Source: Caldilineaceae bacterium
Lineage (GTDB): Bacteria; Chloroflexota; Anaerolineae; Caldilineales; Caldilineaceae
Assembly (NCBI GenBank): GCA_012032975.1
Contig: JAAUPU010000102.1
Span: forward strand, 1-8,010
DNA length: 8,010 nucleotides
Direction of reading: 5' to 3'
Within the stretch, counting starts at the first letter, position 1. Every line of letters starts with the position of its first letter. A program made the position numbers and the translations under genes. Shown here in pieces: positions 1,194 to 8,010 of the stretch. Below the pieces are notes generated by a model that had not been told where the DNA came from, did not search any database, and saw nothing but the letters and a program-made list of their open reading frames with translations.

Positions 1194-1348
1194 AACTTGC
1201 TGGGAGAGCGCAAGAGCCAACGGGCATGAGGTGGTCGGACAGCGATTCATTCTCTTCTGCGCCTGTTTGCCCGCCCAGCCTCGTGCCCCTACCCGTCAAT
1301 CGACCTTAGAAGATATCAGTTCACAAATTGCCAAACCGAAGGTGGGCC

Positions 1349-3001
1349 ATGCGTTCCATTTCAACTGTTCCTGATCTCATCCTGATGAACGCCAGAATCT
1401 TCACCGTGGACGACGAACACTCCTGGGCGCAGGCCATCGCGATCCGCAAGCACCGGGTGGTCGCCTTGGGCAATGATGATGAAATCTTGGCGTTGGCCGG
1501 GCCTGACACGCAGCGCATCGACGCCGGCGGACGATTGGTCTTGCCCGGTCTGTGCGATGCGCACATCCATTTTCTCGACTGGAGTTTGGGGCTGAACGAG
1601 GTGCAGTTGGCCGGCTGCACCAGCAAGGCCGAGATGCTGGCGCAGATCGCGGCGCGTGTGGATACAACGCCGCCGGGCGTCTGGATCACAGGACGAGGGT
1701 GGAACGAAAGTCGCTGGGGCGAGGTGCGTTTTCCCACCGCCGATGACCTGGACAGCGTGGCCGGTGCGGACCATCCCGCGATCTTCTGGCGCAGCGATAT
1801 GCACGCCGCCGTGGCCAATCGCGCGGCCATGCGCATCGCCGGGATCGACGAGCGAACGCCCGATCCTCCAGGCGGGCTGATCGAGCGCGATGGTGCGGGC
1901 AGACCCAACGGCATTTTCAAGGAACTGGCCATTGGGCTGGTCAGCCGTCATATCGACAAGGTTGACGGCGCGAATCTGGAGCAGGCACTGCAAGAGGGAA
2001 TGGCGACGTTGCACCGCTTGGGCGTGACGGCCATCCACGACCAGCGCATGAAAGACCACGACGATGGACCGAGGGCGTTGGGCGCATACAGGCGCCTGCA
2101 GGAAGTTGGCCAATTGCAGTTGCGGATCAACTGCAATGTCGCCGCCCATGATCTGCCGCACTTGGCCGGGCTGGGGCTGCGCAGCGGCTTTGGCGACGAT
2201 TCGATCCGCCTTGGCCATGTCAAGGTCTTTACCGATGGCAGCCTGGGCAGCCGCACGGCCTGGATGCTGGAACCATTTGTCAAGCTCTCTCCAGACGAAG
2301 CCGACAACCGCGGCGTCTGGATCACGCCGCCCGAACAGATGGCGGCTGAATTCCGACGCGCGACCGAACTGGGCTTCCCCATCAGCGTCCACGCCATCGG
2401 CGACCGCGCCAACCGTGTCTGCCTGGACATCTTCGAGGAGTTGGCCGATGCGGGGCTGGCGCAGCCGATCCCCCACCGGATCGAGCATGTGCAGACCATC
2501 CACCCCGACGACCTGCCGCGGCTGGCCGGCCTTGACATCACCGCCAGCGTGCAGCCGATCCACGCGACCGACGACATGGACAGCGCAGATCTCCTGCTCG
2601 GCCCCCGCGGCGCCCACACCTACAACTTCCGCTCGCTGATCGCGGCTGGAACCCGACTGGCCTTTGGCAGCGATGCGCCCGTCGCCAACCCGAATCCCAT
2701 GTTGGGCATCCACGCCGCGCTCTGCCGTCAGCGTGTCGAACGGATGAAGCAACCCTCCTGGTATGCAGACGAGCGGATTTCGCTGGAGCAGGCCATCCGC
2801 GCCTACACCATTGACGCGGCGCGTGCGGCGGGATGGGAGCGGAGCATCGGAAGTCTGGCCGTGGGCAAGCGCGCCGATCTGATCATGCTGGACCGGAATC
2901 TGTTTGAGGTGGCCAGCGCGGGGGTGACCGGCGACGAGATCGCAACGACCGAGGTCTTGTTGACCATCTTCGACGGCCAGATCGTCTATGAAAGCGCATA
3001 G
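1349..3001 (+). CDS. Metal-dependent amidohydrolase, YtcJ-like (amidohydrolase_3)
   Basis: A 550-residue protein of the TIM-barrel amidohydrolase superfamily, subgroup YtcJ/NfdA-like exoenzyme-type hydrolases. An N-terminal beta-sandwich segment ([20 protein letters not shown]) leads to the metal motif HxH (H72, H74 in LCDAHIHF). A Lys in [12 protein letters not shown] (K292), His in SVHAIGD (H348), His in HRIEH (H376/H380) and Asp in AFGSDAPV (D442) complete the expected ligand and catalytic set. The C-terminus returns to the sandwich with [17 protein letters not shown]. Such enzymes hydrolyse amide or ester bonds in the cytosol; substrates are rarely predictable. The ATG at 1349 is preferred over an in-frame TTG at 1328 because AAGGTGG lies just before it and homology begins soon after. 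It is transcribed divergently from the SDR operon. All key residues are present and the length is normal for the family. Confidence 0.93.
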
Positions 3002-3019
3002 CAGCGATGGCTGCGCTGC
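3001..3019 (+). terminator. Weak hairpin at the end of the amidohydrolase gene
   Basis: GCAGCG (3001-3006) and CGCTGC (3014-3019) form a 6-bp stem with a 7-base loop, beginning at the last base of the stop codon. No T-run follows, so if it ends transcription it is not a classical intrinsic terminator. It may act together with the palindromic element immediately downstream. Confidence 0.25.
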
Positions 3020-3109
3020 CAGAAGATATTGGGCCACGAATTTCACGAATTTCGCGGATTTCACGAAAGCCCCCATTGGTCAAGAGGATGATGGAATCTG
3101 ACAACTTGC

Positions 3110-3132
3110 AGGTGCGGCTACAAGCCCCACCT
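3110..3132. repeat. Central hairpin A of the palindromic element
   Basis: AGGTG-C-GGC, loop TACAA, GCC-C-CACCT: an 8-pair stem with one C/C mismatch. Its core GCGGCTACAAGCC resembles that of hairpin B (GCGGCTAGAAACC), so the two look like diverged copies of one unit. Confidence 0.6.
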
Positions 3133-3147
3133 ACTGTCAAGAAATCA

Positions 3148-3164
3148 CGCGGCTAGAAACCGCG
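3148..3164. repeat. Central hairpin B of the palindromic element
   Basis: CGCGG (3148-3152) and CCGCG (3160-3164) pair around the 7-base loop CTAGAAA. It is the second copy of the GCGGCTAnAAnCC unit, lying 16 bases after hairpin A in the same orientation. Confidence 0.55.
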
Positions 3165-3755: not shown

Positions 3756-5042
3756 TTACCAGCGAGTCGCCTGGAAGGTCCAGCCAGGCCGGACCTTTTG
3801 CATTTCGATTTCGTCGTTGCGTTCGGTCAGACCACAGCGCAGATAATTCTCGTGCAGCCGGGCCAACGCGGTCCGGTCCAGCTCGATGCCCAGCCCCGGT
3901 TCGTTGGAGACGACCAGCGCGCCATCGTCGAACTGGAGTCGGCCACCCGCCACCACTTCGTCCGATTGCCACGGATAGTGGGTGTCGCAGGCGTAGGTCA
4001 GGTTGGGAACGGCCGCGGCGACATGGGCCATCGCCGCCAGTGAGATGCCCACATGGCTGTTGGAATGCATGGAAAGCCCGCGGCCAAAGGTGGTGCAGAT
4101 TCGACCCAGCTCGACCGTCGCCCGCAAACCGCCCCAGAAATGGTGGTCGCTGAGGATGATATCCTCGGAGTGGAGTCGGATGCTGCCGGGGAGGTCGTCG
4201 AACGAGGTTGTACACATATTCGTGGCCAGCGGGATGTCCAGCGCTTTGCCGACGGCGGCCATGTTCTCCTGCCCACGCACCGGGTCTTCGTAATATTCCA
4301 ACACACCCAGCAACCGCTGGCCCGCCTTGATCGCCGATTTGACCGTCCAGATGGCGTTGGGGTCGAGGCGAAGCGGGGTGTCGGGACCGAACGCCTCGCG
4401 CAGCGCCAGGATCGCGTCTACTTCTTCATCGGGCGGGAACGCGCCGCCCTTGAGCTTGATCGATTTGAAGCCAAATTCATCACACATCCCCTTGGCCTGG
4501 GCGACCACCCCGTCGGGGTTCAGCGCGGCGGCCTGGCGAGCTGCCGCCCATCCGGTGGCGTTGGGGTCGATGTCAAAGCCGAGTTCGCCGCCGGCGCCCT
4601 CATGTTTATAGAAAAGATAGGCTGAAAAATCGACCCGGTCTCGGGCGCGACCGCCGAGAAGATCGACCACCGGACGCCCGGTCGCTTTGCCCATCAAATC
4701 AAAACAGGCCACCTCGATCGCGCTAAAGACATGGACCAGACGGCGCTTGTCCCAGGGCGATTCGCCGCGGCCCTCCGCGCCATCCTCGCCAAAGCGTTCG
4801 CTCAATTCCTGGTGGATCGCGGCGTGTTGAAAGGGATCCATGCCGACCAGCACCTCGCGCGCCGCGTTCAGCGCTTCGGTTGTGGCCAGGTTGCCGGGCA
4901 CTTCGCCCAGCCCGTAGATGTTGTCGTCGGTCACCAGCTCGATGATGGTGCGCAGGGCATAGGGCGCGTGCAGCCCAGCAGCATTGAGCAATGGTGGATC
5001 GCCGACGGCAATCGGCGTGACGTGCATTTCGCGAATTTTCAT
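3756..5042 (-). CDS. gudD: Glucarate dehydratase-like enolase superfamily protein
   Basis: A 428-residue member of the enolase superfamily whose closest resemblance is glucarate dehydratase, which removes water from D-glucarate (and often L-idarate) to give 5-keto-4-deoxy-D-glucarate in the cytosol. The N-terminal capping domain has LLNAAGLHAPYALRTIIEL and GLGEVPG. The barrel carries KLKGG (K196 and K198), metal ligands D227 (RLDPNAIW), E252 (YYEDP) and N275 (ATNMCTT), D299 (LSDHHFWGG) and the general base H326 in MHSNSHVGISLA. All residues expected for the GlucD group are present. E. coli GudD is slightly longer (about 446). The start MKIREMHVTPIAV is typical; only a weak GGAA ribosome site precedes it. 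It follows the RraA-like gene by 172 bases on the same strand. A GlucD-related paralogue with different substrate range remains possible. Confidence 0.88.
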   Translation of the reverse strand: MKIREMHVTPIAVGDPPLLNAAGLHAPYALRTIIELVTDDNIYGLGEVPGNLATTEALNAAREVLVGMDPFQHAAIHQELSERFGEDGAEGRGESPWDKRRLVHVFSAIEVACFDLMGKATGRPVVDLLGGRARDRVDFSAYLFYKHEGAGGELGFDIDPNATGWAAARQAAALNPDGVVAQAKGMCDEFGFKSIKLKGGAFPPDEEVDAILALREAFGPDTPLRLDPNAIWTVKSAIKAGQRLLGVLEYYEDPVRGQENMAAVGKALDIPLATNMCTTSFDDLPGSIRLHSEDIILSDHHFWGGLRATVELGRICTTFGRGLSMHSNSHVGISLAAMAHVAAAVPNLTYACDTHYPWQSDEVVAGGRLQFDDGALVVSNEPGLGIELDRTALARLHENYLRCGLTERNDEIEMQKVRPGWTFQATRW

Positions 5043-5214: not shown

Positions 5215-6021
5215 CTATCGTTCCTTCAACCAGCCCTGAAAGTCCGCCTCGATCTCGTCGGACCATTTGCGGTCGATCTCGCCGGGTGTGTATCTTTTCT
5301 GGGTCAGCCGCAGCTTGCCAAATTCATCGCGCACGCGCACATCTTCGGAACGTTCGACCACTTCCTGGGCCAGATGGGCGGGGATGAAGATGACGCCGGT
5401 CGGCGTGCCCAGCACGATGTCGCCCGGCAAGACTGTCACACCGTCGATGCGGATGGGGATGTTGATGCCGGCCAGCGTGCAATCCTTGATCGCGCTGGGG
5501 TCCAGGCCCCGGTGGAAAAAGGTGACATCGGTCAGTTGAGCGATGCCGGCAAAATCGCGGATGCCGCCGTTGATCACCGCGCCGGCGCGGGTGCGGGTGC
5601 GCACCGAGGTGGCCAGGTTGTCGCCCACAAAGGTACCCTCGTAGACCTTGCCAAACATATCCACCACCATCACATCGTTGGCCTCCAGGGTGTCGATCAC
5701 CCAGGAATTTTGGCCGCCGATGCGCCCTTCCGCCTCGCCCAGTTCCTGGACCAGCTCCTGGAGATCGGGTCGTTGGGGCACCATCTGCGCGGTGACCACA
5801 CGGCCCACCAACACCTGGTCTGGATGGGTGCGCAACCAGCCGCCCACGAATTGAAAACTGTAGCCGTTGCGACGCAGCACGGACCACGCCTCTTCGGTGG
5901 TCACCAGCTTCATGCGCTCGATCAGGTCGTCGGAGACGCGGGGCCGGCCATCGGCAAAGCGGTCGGCGTCGAAGAGGCGCGTCAACTGCTTGACGGACTC
6001 CGGCGGGTTGACAATGTTCAT
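5215..6021 (-). CDS. RraA-family protein, putative HMG/CHA-type aldolase
   Basis: A 268-residue protein with the RraA / 4-hydroxy-4-methyl-2-oxoglutarate aldolase fold (often mislabelled dimethylmenaquinone methyltransferase). The signature FVGDNLATSVRTRTRAGAVI followed by NGGIRD supplies the conserved G-D (133-134) and R155-D156 pair that in characterised aldolases bind the metal and the pyruvate moiety; GVTVLPGDIVLGTPTGVIFI completes the core. The ends are longer than in E. coli RraA (about 160 aa). The extra C-terminal RYTPGEIDRKW...DFQGWL is common to sugar-acid-associated members as I recall. The start at 6021 has an AGGA site seven bases upstream. Its own promoter lies at 6109-6137 and the glucarate dehydratase-like gene follows on the same strand, so cleavage of a keto-deoxy sugar acid into pyruvate plus an aldehyde is a fair inference. 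Regulation of RNase E is unlikely. Confidence 0.87.
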   Translation of the reverse strand: MNIVNPPESVKQLTRLFDADRFADGRPRVSDDLIERMKLVTTEEAWSVLRRNGYSFQFVGGWLRTHPDQVLVGRVVTAQMVPQRPDLQELVQELGEAEGRIGGQNSWVIDTLEANDVMVVDMFGKVYEGTFVGDNLATSVRTRTRAGAVINGGIRDFAGIAQLTDVTFFHRGLDPSAIKDCTLAGINIPIRIDGVTVLPGDIVLGTPTGVIFIPAHLAQEVVERSEDVRVRDEFGKLRLTQKRYTPGEIDRKWSDEIEADFQGWLKER

Positions 6022-6257: not shown

Positions 6258-6527
6258 TCAGAGCACCAAGCGCTTGGCCGCAAACACCTGGAGCGTCTGC
6301 CGAATGTCTGCAATCAGGTCGATGCCGTCAGCCACGTGAAAGCTGGCGCGCAGCCGGCTTTCGATCTGGCCCACGTCGTGGCTGCCATCGCACAATTCCC
6401 AGACCACGCGCGCGGTCGGGTTCAAGATGTGGACGGCCTCATCCTCATCGACATAGACGAGAATCTCTTGCGCCAGCTCCTCGACCAGGAGATCAGTGCG
6501 CCGGCGGGGCTTTGTGTTTTCGTCCAT
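6258..6527 (-). CDS. PqqD-family (RiPP recognition element) peptide-binding protein
   Basis: An 89-residue protein starting MDENTKPRRRTDLLVEELAQ. The ATG at 6527 has GGAG six bases upstream; in-frame ATGs at 6539, 6557 and 6587 have poorer sites. It shows the PqqD winged-helix pattern: strands around EILVYVDEDEAVHILNPTA, the helix ARVVWELCDG, then HDVGQIESRLRASF and a last helix IADIRQTLQVFAAKRLVL. The LN-x-T-A-x-x-V/I-W-x-L-C-D-G core is the family hallmark. PqqD proteins bind the leader of a ribosomal peptide and present it to a modifying enzyme, usually a radical SAM protein. No such enzyme is in the window. The gene follows the 65-residue candidate precursor by 46 bases on the same strand, which fits a precursor/chaperone pair. 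The family call is strong; the pathway is unknown. Confidence 0.88.
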   Translation of the reverse strand: MDENTKPRRRTDLLVEELAQEILVYVDEDEAVHILNPTARVVWELCDGSHDVGQIESRLRASFHVADGIDLIADIRQTLQVFAAKRLVL

Positions 6528-6573
6528 GGCGAACTCCATTTTGTGCGCGTGCTCCATCCGAACCGTCGCCACG

Positions 6574-6771
6574 TCAATCCATCCCAAACATGGACATACC
6601 GCTGCCAGCGCGCGCTGGACCCAGCGAGGCCAGAAGCTCGGCGTCTGTAAAGGTCGTGACCGTCGGTGGCGTGTAGATGGGCAAGCGCGATGAGAGCGAA
6701 CGACCCGCCGCTCTCATCAGGTCGGTCTCTTCATCAACAGTCGTTTTGGGATAGTCGTCTGGCTGCGTCAT
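6574..6771 (-). CDS. Candidate RiPP precursor peptide (65 aa)
   Basis: The ATG at 6771 has GGAG six bases upstream, a clear ribosome site, so this small frame is probably translated. Residues 1-30 are acidic then basic (DDYPKTTVDEETDLMRAAGR). Residues 33-53 read YTPPTVTTFTDAELLASLGP plus Ala, a leader-like motif of Tyr, two prolines, a short strand, an acidic helix and LGPA. I recall similar YxPPxVxTxxxxEhhxxLGPA leaders (h = hydrophobic) in small peptides near PqqD-type genes, though I cannot cite a named family. The remaining 12 residues, RAGSGMSMFGMD, are rich in Gly, Ser and Met, with no Cys; this would be the core. The PqqD-like gene lies directly downstream, which is the main support for the reading. 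A plain small structural protein cannot be excluded. Its promoter is unclear (CATAAT at 6799-6794 without a good -35). Confidence 0.7.
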   Translation of the reverse strand: MTQPDDYPKTTVDEETDLMRAAGRSLSSRLPIYTPPTVTTFTDAELLASLGPARAGSGMSMFGMD

Positions 6772-6827: not shown

Positions 6828-6854
6828 CACGAATTGAACGAATTACACGAATTG
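6828..6854. repeat. CACGAATTG repeat (three 9-bp units)
   Basis: CACGAATTG (6828-6836), AACGAATTA (6837-6845) and CACGAATTG (6846-6854) are head-to-tail units of the same family as the outer arms of the palindromic element at 3033-3224. Here only one arm is present. It lies upstream of the precursor peptide, in a gene-free stretch (6772-6937). Confidence 0.75.
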
Positions 6855-6870
6855 TCCAGATAGGATTCGT

Positions 6871-6937: not shown

Positions 6938-7174
6938 CTACCGCACCAGATAAGGCAGGAAGATTCGATGGGTTCCGTTACCAGGCGCCTCGGCCACACC
7001 AATCGTCGCTGCGACCGGGCCATGCAGCGTGGATACGCCTGCCGAGTCCACATCTTCCAGCCAATACTCGAAACGCCCGGCACCAGGGGAATCCTCGAAG
7101 CTATAGGCTGCACCTTGCCCCGGCGGCGCGATCGGCGTCACCAGCGAAGGCAAAGGCAGGGGTTCGACGTTCGA
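6938..7174 (-). CDS. C-terminal fragment of a secreted/surface protein
   Basis: The last 79 or so residues of a larger protein are readable, ending at TAG 6940-6938. Their sequence, from SNVEPLPLPSLVTPIAPP through AAYSFEDSPGAGRFEYWLED and STLHGPVAATIGVAEA to RIFLPYLVR, is typical of a beta-rich extracellular module followed by a short IFLPYLVR tail. I recall such LPY/LPL-type tails as the usual ends of exported proteins in Chloroflexota, where they probably serve surface sorting. Upstream, at about 7165-7180, the expected continuation is lost and an unrelated glycosyltransferase takes over in another frame. The gene is therefore a broken piece, either by recombination or by an assembly join. 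Confidence 0.65.
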   Translation of the reverse strand, partial: SNVEPLPLPSLVTPIAPPGQGAAYSFEDSPGAGRFEYWLEDVDSAGVSTLHGPVAATIGVAEAPGNGTHRIFLPYLVR

Positions 7175-7185
7175 GATCCGCCTGC
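7160..7185. other. Breakpoint between two unrelated gene fragments
   Basis: Left of here the minus strand reads a secreted-protein C-terminus; right of here it reads a glycosyltransferase, in a different frame. Both reading frames are plausible up to about 7170-7174 and poor beyond it. GC falls on the right (29/60 at 7561-7620 and 31/60 at 7321-7380 by hand count). No insertion-sequence end or target duplication is visible. Confidence 0.65.
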
Positions 7186-8010
7186 CAGGCGTCGAGACTC
7201 TCCCCCTGCCAGGTGGTCCCCCAGGGTTGGCGGACGACTTCGTCGAAGAAAACGTCATTGTTTCCGAGCAGTAGCGTGTAGCCGCCGTGAGTCGTGGCCC
7301 AGATCGGTTTGTCGAAAACTCGATCGTTGCGAATCATCCAAACACCGACGAATACCGCCAAGATGGCGATGATGATCCCTCCGGCATTCACCTCGCCAGC
7401 CCTGCGGTTCACGACGCCCTGAACGATGATGTAGCCGCCCATCGCGAGTGGCCAGAGCACAAACGTGGGTCGACAGAGGTAAGCGAATCCGCAAACCGAT
7501 CCGGTCAAACAAGCGAGAGCTAGCCACGGCGAGGGATTGCCTTTGCGGTGCAACGATTCGTTCAAGCGAACCCAAAACCAATACGTAACAACGACCAGAA
7601 ACGCGGCCAAAGTTTCCGTCATTACGAGCGACGAAGCCCGCAATAGCAGGGGATCCACTGCCACAAGGCAACCGGCAAAAAGGGCAGCCGTCTCGTTGGT
7701 CGCATGAGACCGGACATCGTGGCTGAACATCTTTTTCGCGACGCAATACGTTCCGATCGACGTTGCGACCCCGAGCAACCAGTGAAGAATCGCAATCCTT
7801 TGATTGGGAATATTACCTTGCGCATCGGCGAGCCATGAAATCAACCAGGGATACAGTGGAGGACGAAATGCCGTCGGGCTACCACTTGCCTCCCCTGACC
7901 CGGCATCTACCGACTCCAAACCAAAAACGCCGTGAACCTTGAGACAACTCGCGATTCTTCGGTAGGCATCGGGGTCCTCGGTAAGCGAACTGGCGGTCCC
8001 TAAAAGCACC
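7170..8010 (-). CDS. Internal fragment of a multi-pass glycosyltransferase (PMT/ArnT-like)
   Basis: About 280 residues are readable from the right edge of the window. The GTG at 8009-8007 is probably an internal Val, so the gene starts outside. The sequence has FRPPLYPWLISWL near residues 49-60, a loop common in the dolichyl-phosphate-mannose mannosyltransferase/ArnT group (GT-C fold). Membrane helices follow at roughly 72-93, 107-123, 130-147, 161-178, 180-200 and 209-226. After them comes an extracytoplasmic part with RNDRVFDKPIWATTHGGYTL and LLGNNDVFFDEVVRQPWGTTW. Such enzymes move a sugar from a polyprenyl phosphate onto protein or lipid. The wording is closest to planctomycete proteins I recall. 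Sense is lost after WQADLER, at about 7170, well short of the family length. Base composition is clearly lower in GC than the rest of the window. Confidence 0.78.

Follow-up and report, generated by a model that had tools for sequence, protein, structure and literature searches.

A candidate precursor peptide and a PqqD-like protein of Caldilineaceae within a multi-phylum peptide family with recurring gene neighbours

The gene pair and its setting

The window analysed here is an 8,010-nt stretch of a Caldilineaceae bacterium contig (JAAUPU010000102.1) and carries two small adjacent genes on the reverse strand. The first (6574..6771) begins with ATG and encodes a 65-aa candidate precursor peptide devoid of Cys, in which a YTPP motif (residues 33–36) is followed by DAELLASLGPA and a 12-residue tail, RAGSGMSMFGMD. 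The second (6258..6527) encodes an 89-aa discrete PqqD-like protein, a putative RiPP recognition element (RRE), likely translated from an ATG at 6527, with a TTG at 6587 as the alternative earlier start in the ORF listing. The peptide stop and the PqqD-like ATG are separated by 46 bases (6528–6573), and a GGAG with good spacing precedes each ATG (GGAGCGAGCC-ATG and GGAGTTCGCC-ATG). The initial annotation of this DNA had described this same-strand arrangement and the peptide sequence, both of which the ORF listing confirmed, and had called the second gene PqqD-like, which was borne out by a match to Pfam PqqD (PF05402) above the cut-off (E 2.3e-9, 37.9 bits; cut-off 23.4).

Profiles built without the window recovered both genes among its 164 frames (E 3.9e-28 for the PqqD-like protein and 8.5e-13 for the peptide). 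A strict motif pattern matched the window once and none of 200 shuffled versions; a chance ORF is disfavoured as the reading of the peptide. Single-sequence protein searches with either protein returned the window itself only, and no model in NCBIfam, Pfam or PHROGs names the window peptide. Searches of plasmids gave no DNA match and two protein matches, both insignificant.

Next to the peptide gene lies the C-terminal part of an FN3-like domain of an exported protein (6995..7120, reverse strand), recognized with a profile that did not have the window among its seeds. The 5’ part of this gene is missing and the domain lacks its N-terminal half, while the open frame (6938–7258, reverse strand) continues to 6938 and ends in IFLPYLVR. 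It is met by a glycosyltransferase gene of the PMT type (PMT_2; 7101..8009, reverse strand), of which the 5’ part is present in an ORF open at the window edge. The glycosyltransferase frame enters the FN3 remnant out of frame at a joint placed by eye at roughly 7130–7170, where the sequence could have been cut by a deletion or be an assembly fault (a chimera).

The peptide family and its recurring neighbours

Relatives of the peptide were sought with a relaxed DNA pattern, YxxPx[VI]xx[FY]xxx[DE]LLxxLGPA, which matched 73 stretches in genome_contigs and none in viral_contigs. In 71 of the 73 the match falls inside a short open frame of 27–80 aa belonging to the peptide family; the other two (L002 and L049) look like chance matches. 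By record title the stretches come from Planctomycetota, Thermodesulfobacteriota, Acidobacteriota, Chloroflexota and Verrucomicrobiota (a single record titled Verrucomicrobia), with titles that include Brocadia, Desulfobacteraceae, ‘Proteobacteria’, Holophagaceae, Aminicenantes, Litorilinea aerophila and a number of ‘bacterium’ records without placement. Profile searching after the DNA pattern also brought in LGTA, LGAA and LGVA variants. In a 5.8-billion protein set the profile matched 163 proteins at E <= 1e-3; among the 120 of these that were listed none carries a Pfam domain, and those with a name are called ‘hypothetical protein’. Of 41 source assemblies, 30 genomes were scanned with the peptide profile, and all 30 contain the family, with as many as nine places per genome. 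In the class to which the Litorilinea genome belongs, it was found in 15 of 298 genomes. Eight relatives of the window peptide gave no match above cut-off in NCBIfam. Among the open-licence papers listed, none is by title on this family, the related PMC13381572 apart, and none was found that joins PqqD with an LGPA precursor, an HprK-related kinase, or peptidase C25 plus radical SAM.

In most members the leader motif closes with LGPA-x-[AT]-x-[STY]. The conservation seen at Y, P, [V/I], [F/Y], [D/E], L, L and LGPA is in part a product of the DNA pattern, which also requires the Y33 and P36 that are invariant in the family alignment; the positions after GPA and the gene neighbours are independent of the pattern. 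One copy (L025) stops directly after GPA.

HMMs were built from the recurring neighbours of the peptide loci. The common module, all on one strand, consists of an FN3-tailed exported protein, an S26 signal peptidase, a stand-alone PqqD, the peptide, a PqqD-radical SAM/SPASM fusion, an HprK-like kinase, a C25 peptidase, a further S26 and an NTP_transf_5 nucleotidyltransferase (NTase), parts of which are absent or displaced in individual loci. Neighbours were counted per assembly over 51 assemblies, one of them that of the window, leaving out L002, L049 and repeated loci (L074–L086 and L090); the counts are lower bounds because many loci are contig ends. The FN3-tailed protein is encoded within 1 kb upstream of the peptide in 29 of the 51 assemblies, and a stand-alone PqqD is adjacent in 18 including the window; in 17 of the 50 others a same-strand gene for it stands no more than about 600 bases away. 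The kinase stands beside the peptide in 24 assemblies, C25 in 18, the radical SAM enzyme in 15, the signal peptidase in six and the NTase in three, with at least one of PqqD, radical SAM, kinase, signal peptidase or NTase in 37. Two signal peptidases tested both pass TIGR02228, the archaeal type.

The nearest layout to that of the window was found in genome G197 (locus L122), where the order is NTase, kinase, C25, FN3 protein, S26, peptide and PqqD, and the end of this run reproduces the window order. A Litorilinea locus (L123) holds PqqD, FN3 protein, peptide, kinase, C25, S26 and NTase. Where a stand-alone PqqD is adjacent, its position is downstream of the peptide gene in the window and in L089, L041 and L080, and upstream in the other cases. 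In genome G164 (L126) a PqqD-peptide-kinase-S26-NTase run is flanked, as judged by eye, by adenylation-domain-like and asparagine-synthetase-like proteins.

Homologues of the peptide occur in 50 other assemblies, 17 of them with a stand-alone PqqD close by, and the enzymes that recur with them are the HprK-like kinase, C25, radical SAM, signal peptidase and NTase. On this evidence the pair is, with high confidence, the precursor and RRE of the family described here, as had been proposed, and the 12-residue tail is supported as its likely core. The earlier descriptions of the pair as an orphan and as a possible new minimal class find no support; it forms one end of a larger recurring module of which the FN3-tailed gene is cut in the window. 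Profiles for the kinase, peptidase, NTase, C25 and radical SAM enzyme gave no match in the window. Because the window keeps only the peptide, the PqqD-like gene and the broken FN3-tailed neighbour, the enzymes must be elsewhere in the genome or lost.

Recognition element, core residues and candidate enzymes

The window PqqD-like protein was predicted with a pLDDT of 94.4 as a three-stranded sheet with three helices, a predicted model that matches RRE structures. Its best PDB matches (TM 0.74–0.83) are TbiB1-leader (5v1u and 5v1v) and a lasso B1-leader complex (6jx3), lasso RREs that were co-crystallized with leader peptides; by sequence alone it matched no solved structure. YxxP is described as the lasso recognition motif in PMC12710340. 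The pair could thus be viewed as a lasso peptide precursor with its B1 protein, given the YxxP leader motif, the likeness of the modelled RRE to B1 structures and one family member weakly resembling NCBIfam lasso_cyano (E 0.0095, 15.9 of 33 bits). However, the B2 family PF13471 is unmatched in 19 of 39 peptide genomes and in the other 20 has no member within 50 kb of a peptide, and the window tail has no acidic residue at positions 7–9 if the core begins after GPA, which makes a lasso peptide very improbable.

The residues after GPA divide the family. A radical SAM profile (E <= 1e-60) found its enzyme in 16 of the 39 genomes, and Cys at the third position after GPA (GPA+3) occurs in all 16 of these versus three of the 23 others (Fisher 2.6e-8, with related genomes not independent). 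The Cys label was set by eye per genome, from some copies in multi-copy genomes. Of the three exceptions with Cys and no radical SAM match (G002, G019 and G122), G019 and G122 also have Cys-free copies. The contrast recurs within the Chloroflexota group, in whose 16 genomes Cys was seen in 4/4 with the enzyme versus 1/12 without (p 0.003). Counted per locus, Cys is present in 14 of 15 with a radical SAM gene nearby versus 28 of 73 without, a weaker link, as short loci are frequent and the enzyme may be encoded outside them. The radical SAM protein near L001 is a distant one, the family profile finding nothing in its genome, G001. The distribution points to the Cys at GPA+3 as the residue on which the radical SAM enzyme acts. 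The window peptide has Gly at GPA+3 and no Cys, placing it in the branch without radical SAM, so that such an enzyme is not expected.

A PqqD family member and a radical SAM enzyme in 16 of 39 genomes might also belong to a pathway that makes a cofactor from a peptide, like those of PQQ or mycofactocin. Substrates of PQQ- and mycofactocin-type pathways are Glu/Tyr or Val-Tyr, which the tails do not resemble; genomes hold up to nine precursors, many beside FN3-tailed proteins, and the window PqqD missed the NCBIfam cut-off for the PQQ PqqD (TIGR03859; 29.2 of 46 bits). We regard a cofactor system as the least probable of the readings considered.

A relative of the HprK-like kinase (E <= 1e-40) was found in 35 of the 39 peptide genomes, in 26 of which it lies on the same strand within 3 kb of a peptide. 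The H, GK[TS] and SD[DE] motifs are retained in 14 aligned kinases, in-frame stops occur in four of 36 kinase places, and no full-length kinase was found in G002, G015, G020 or G048. The candidate phosphosite of the window peptide is Ser57, at GPA+4. S, T or Y occupies this position in 66 of 81 distinct tails, a set from which four peptides without GP were left out and in which L025 and L091 have no or a mis-set tail, and in 111 of the 120 listed database proteins, which overlap the loci. The candidate site is not unique because Thr is also frequent at GPA+2 (47/81 tails). A phosphate made by the kinase is slightly favoured as the first modification. In signal-peptidase cleavage small residues stand at -3 and -1 of the cut, and the G-P-A preceding the core fits such a cut.

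The position of the enzymes relative to the precursors was considered in the seven kinase-bearing genomes with at least three peptides. Here 30 of the 39 peptides have no same-strand kinase in the surrounding 10 kb, although split contigs can make near genes seem far; this count was preferred over 39/48 because nine far peptides come from G002, in which no full-length kinase was found. Six of the seven genomes have one kinase, and G004 has one kinase for up to nine precursors. One enzyme set therefore seems to serve several precursors, which would account for the absence of enzymes here with no need for a new minimal class. The action in trans that the initial annotation had offered as its other option thus gains support from these genomes and may apply to the window as well.

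Relation to known peptide systems

The closest described system is that of the linear polyphosphorylated peptides (LPP; Popov et al., Nat Commun 2026, PMC13381572). There, the precursors carry a YxxP leader, LppB is the RRE, the archaeal-type signal peptidase LppS cleaves the leader aided by LppB, the HprK-like LppK adds several phosphates to core Ser3, and LppN and an exporter complete the system, which its authors restrict to Bacillota and for which the role is given as unknown. Shared with LPP, as described there, are the YxxPxV leader (YTPPTV in the window) and the discrete RRE of the window, the archaeal-type signal peptidase I, HprK-like kinase and NTP transferase in loci of relatives, a hydroxyl residue soon after the leader and, in L123 and L126, genes of polysaccharide type that stand, by eye, near the peptide. 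Apart from the precursor itself, LPP has five parts as described, and four of them recur in relatives. The exception is the exporter: a crude motif search of the stretches saw no MsbA-like exporter near peptides, except one ATPase frame in L015.

Measured against the same description (PMC13381572), the leader ends LGPA here rather than in FETxxS, no record title among the pattern matches names Bacillota, a PqqD-radical SAM fusion is coupled to Cys at GPA+3 in one branch, C25 proteases and FN3-tailed surface proteins are present, and some genomes scatter several precursors. S3T and S3Y precursors of LPP are reported there to be unphosphorylated, the kinase taking Ser only, whereas T or Y stands at GPA+4 in 36 of the 81 tails. 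Since the FETxxS motif was tested for and was absent, the family is described as LPP-like and not assigned to LPP. Paeninodin-type lasso peptides share, according to PMC9266682, an RRE, an HprK-like kinase acting on a precursor Ser and a nucleotidyltransferase homologue, but no B2 protease lies within 50 kb of a peptide here, and their leaders carry WxxP rather than YxxP (PMC13381572). The paeninodin phosphosite is reported as a C-terminal Ser; three peptides of G122 (L098, L100 and L101) end in AQAVS, so that their candidate phosphosite Ser is also the C-terminus. Against the SynChlorMet models (NCBIfam TIGR04248-04251), a Brocadia PqqD of the family had ScmD as its best NCBIfam match (34.3 bits; cut-off 100), one radical SAM enzyme matched ScmE at 130 of 400 bits, the kinase barely touched ScmC (E 0.0067 and 0.075), and the tested peptides matched none; a search of the open-licence literature on SynChlorMet and ScmA found nothing relevant.

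By analogy with LPP, the reading we favour is that the pair is probably the precursor and RRE of an LPP-like system whose enzymes are elsewhere in the genome or lost. The steps that we infer for it begin with the RRE, which would bind the YxxPx[V/I] strand of the leader; the HprK-like kinase would then phosphorylate the hydroxyl residue at GPA+4 (Ser57 here), and the NTP_transf_5 protein may attach a further group. In other genomes the PqqD-radical SAM/SPASM enzyme would modify the Cys at GPA+3 that the window peptide lacks. The pair seems to be one end of a widespread, little-described peptide-tailoring system, probably based on a kinase, that often stands beside large surface proteins. The family would extend an LPP-like toolkit to five phyla other than Bacillota, by record title, and add to it a radical SAM enzyme that goes together with one core Cys.

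FN3-tailed proteins and the state of the locus

The FN3-like domain was predicted as a beta sandwich (pLDDT 95), and FN3 domains make up many of the best PDB fold matches of this model; by sequence only the Fn3-like protein 3mpc comes near (E 0.031), and one tested member had no match in Pfam. Its alignment (e.g. L007, L018, L021 and L029) reads TEVDNAGFNIYR...YYYKLEDVD..G.STLHGPV. The domain was found in 37 of the 39 peptide genomes. It is also present in 176 of 298 class genomes, compared with 15 of 298 for the peptide, so it was rejected as specific to the system. The association holds in one direction: a peptide gene often comes after an FN3-tailed gene, but not the reverse.

The proximity of these genes has been considered in two ways. 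After processing, for which C25 would be the enzyme, the peptide could serve at the cell surface alongside the FN3-tailed protein encoded upstream, either bound to it or acting as a tag or a sorting signal. The 29 of 51 assemblies with that gene within 1 kb upstream, its presence at the majority of copies in several genomes with multiple copies (e.g. 7/8 in AYTS) and the occurrence of C25 next to the peptide in 18 of the 51 speak for this use, while the frequency of the domain in genomes without the peptide speaks against it, and we consider it unlikely. A broader and still less likely scheme is a multi-phylum surface-decoration system in which each FN3-tailed exported protein would have its own precursor, a central set (RRE, HprK-like kinase, archaeal-type signal peptidase, C25 and, optionally, radical SAM) would mature all of them in trans, and the phosphorylated or radical SAM-modified peptide would be exposed on the surface protein or attached to it; Cys at GPA+3 would be the radical SAM substrate in one branch, with the window in the other. 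Because many precursors are tied to a definite class of surface protein, the role of such RiPPs can be tested through their FN3-tailed partners.

The broken neighbour bears on whether the pair still has a product. A decaying relic, left after deletion of the FN3-tailed gene and the enzymes, would explain an FN3 domain without its N-terminal half, into which a truncated glycosyltransferase runs in another frame, and the module enzymes missing from the window; the family copy that stops directly after GPA points the same way. However, the two small genes are intact, have good ribosome sites and reach normal scores with profiles from which they were left out, precursors far from enzymes are common elsewhere (the 30 of 39 in seven genomes), and the joint could itself be an assembly chimera. 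A relic is a possible but doubtful explanation, and the locus is likely still functional.

The rest of the window is an ordinary catabolic neighbourhood, with genes for a glucarate-dehydratase-like enolase (3756–5042, reverse strand), an RraA-like protein (5215–6021, reverse strand) and an amidohydrolase (1328–3001, forward strand). Short direct repeats lie between genes at 6829–6860 (ACGAATTGAACGAATTACACGAATT), and ORFs at 3007–3156 and 2883–3140 give tandem RISRISRISR and REIREIREIR translations.
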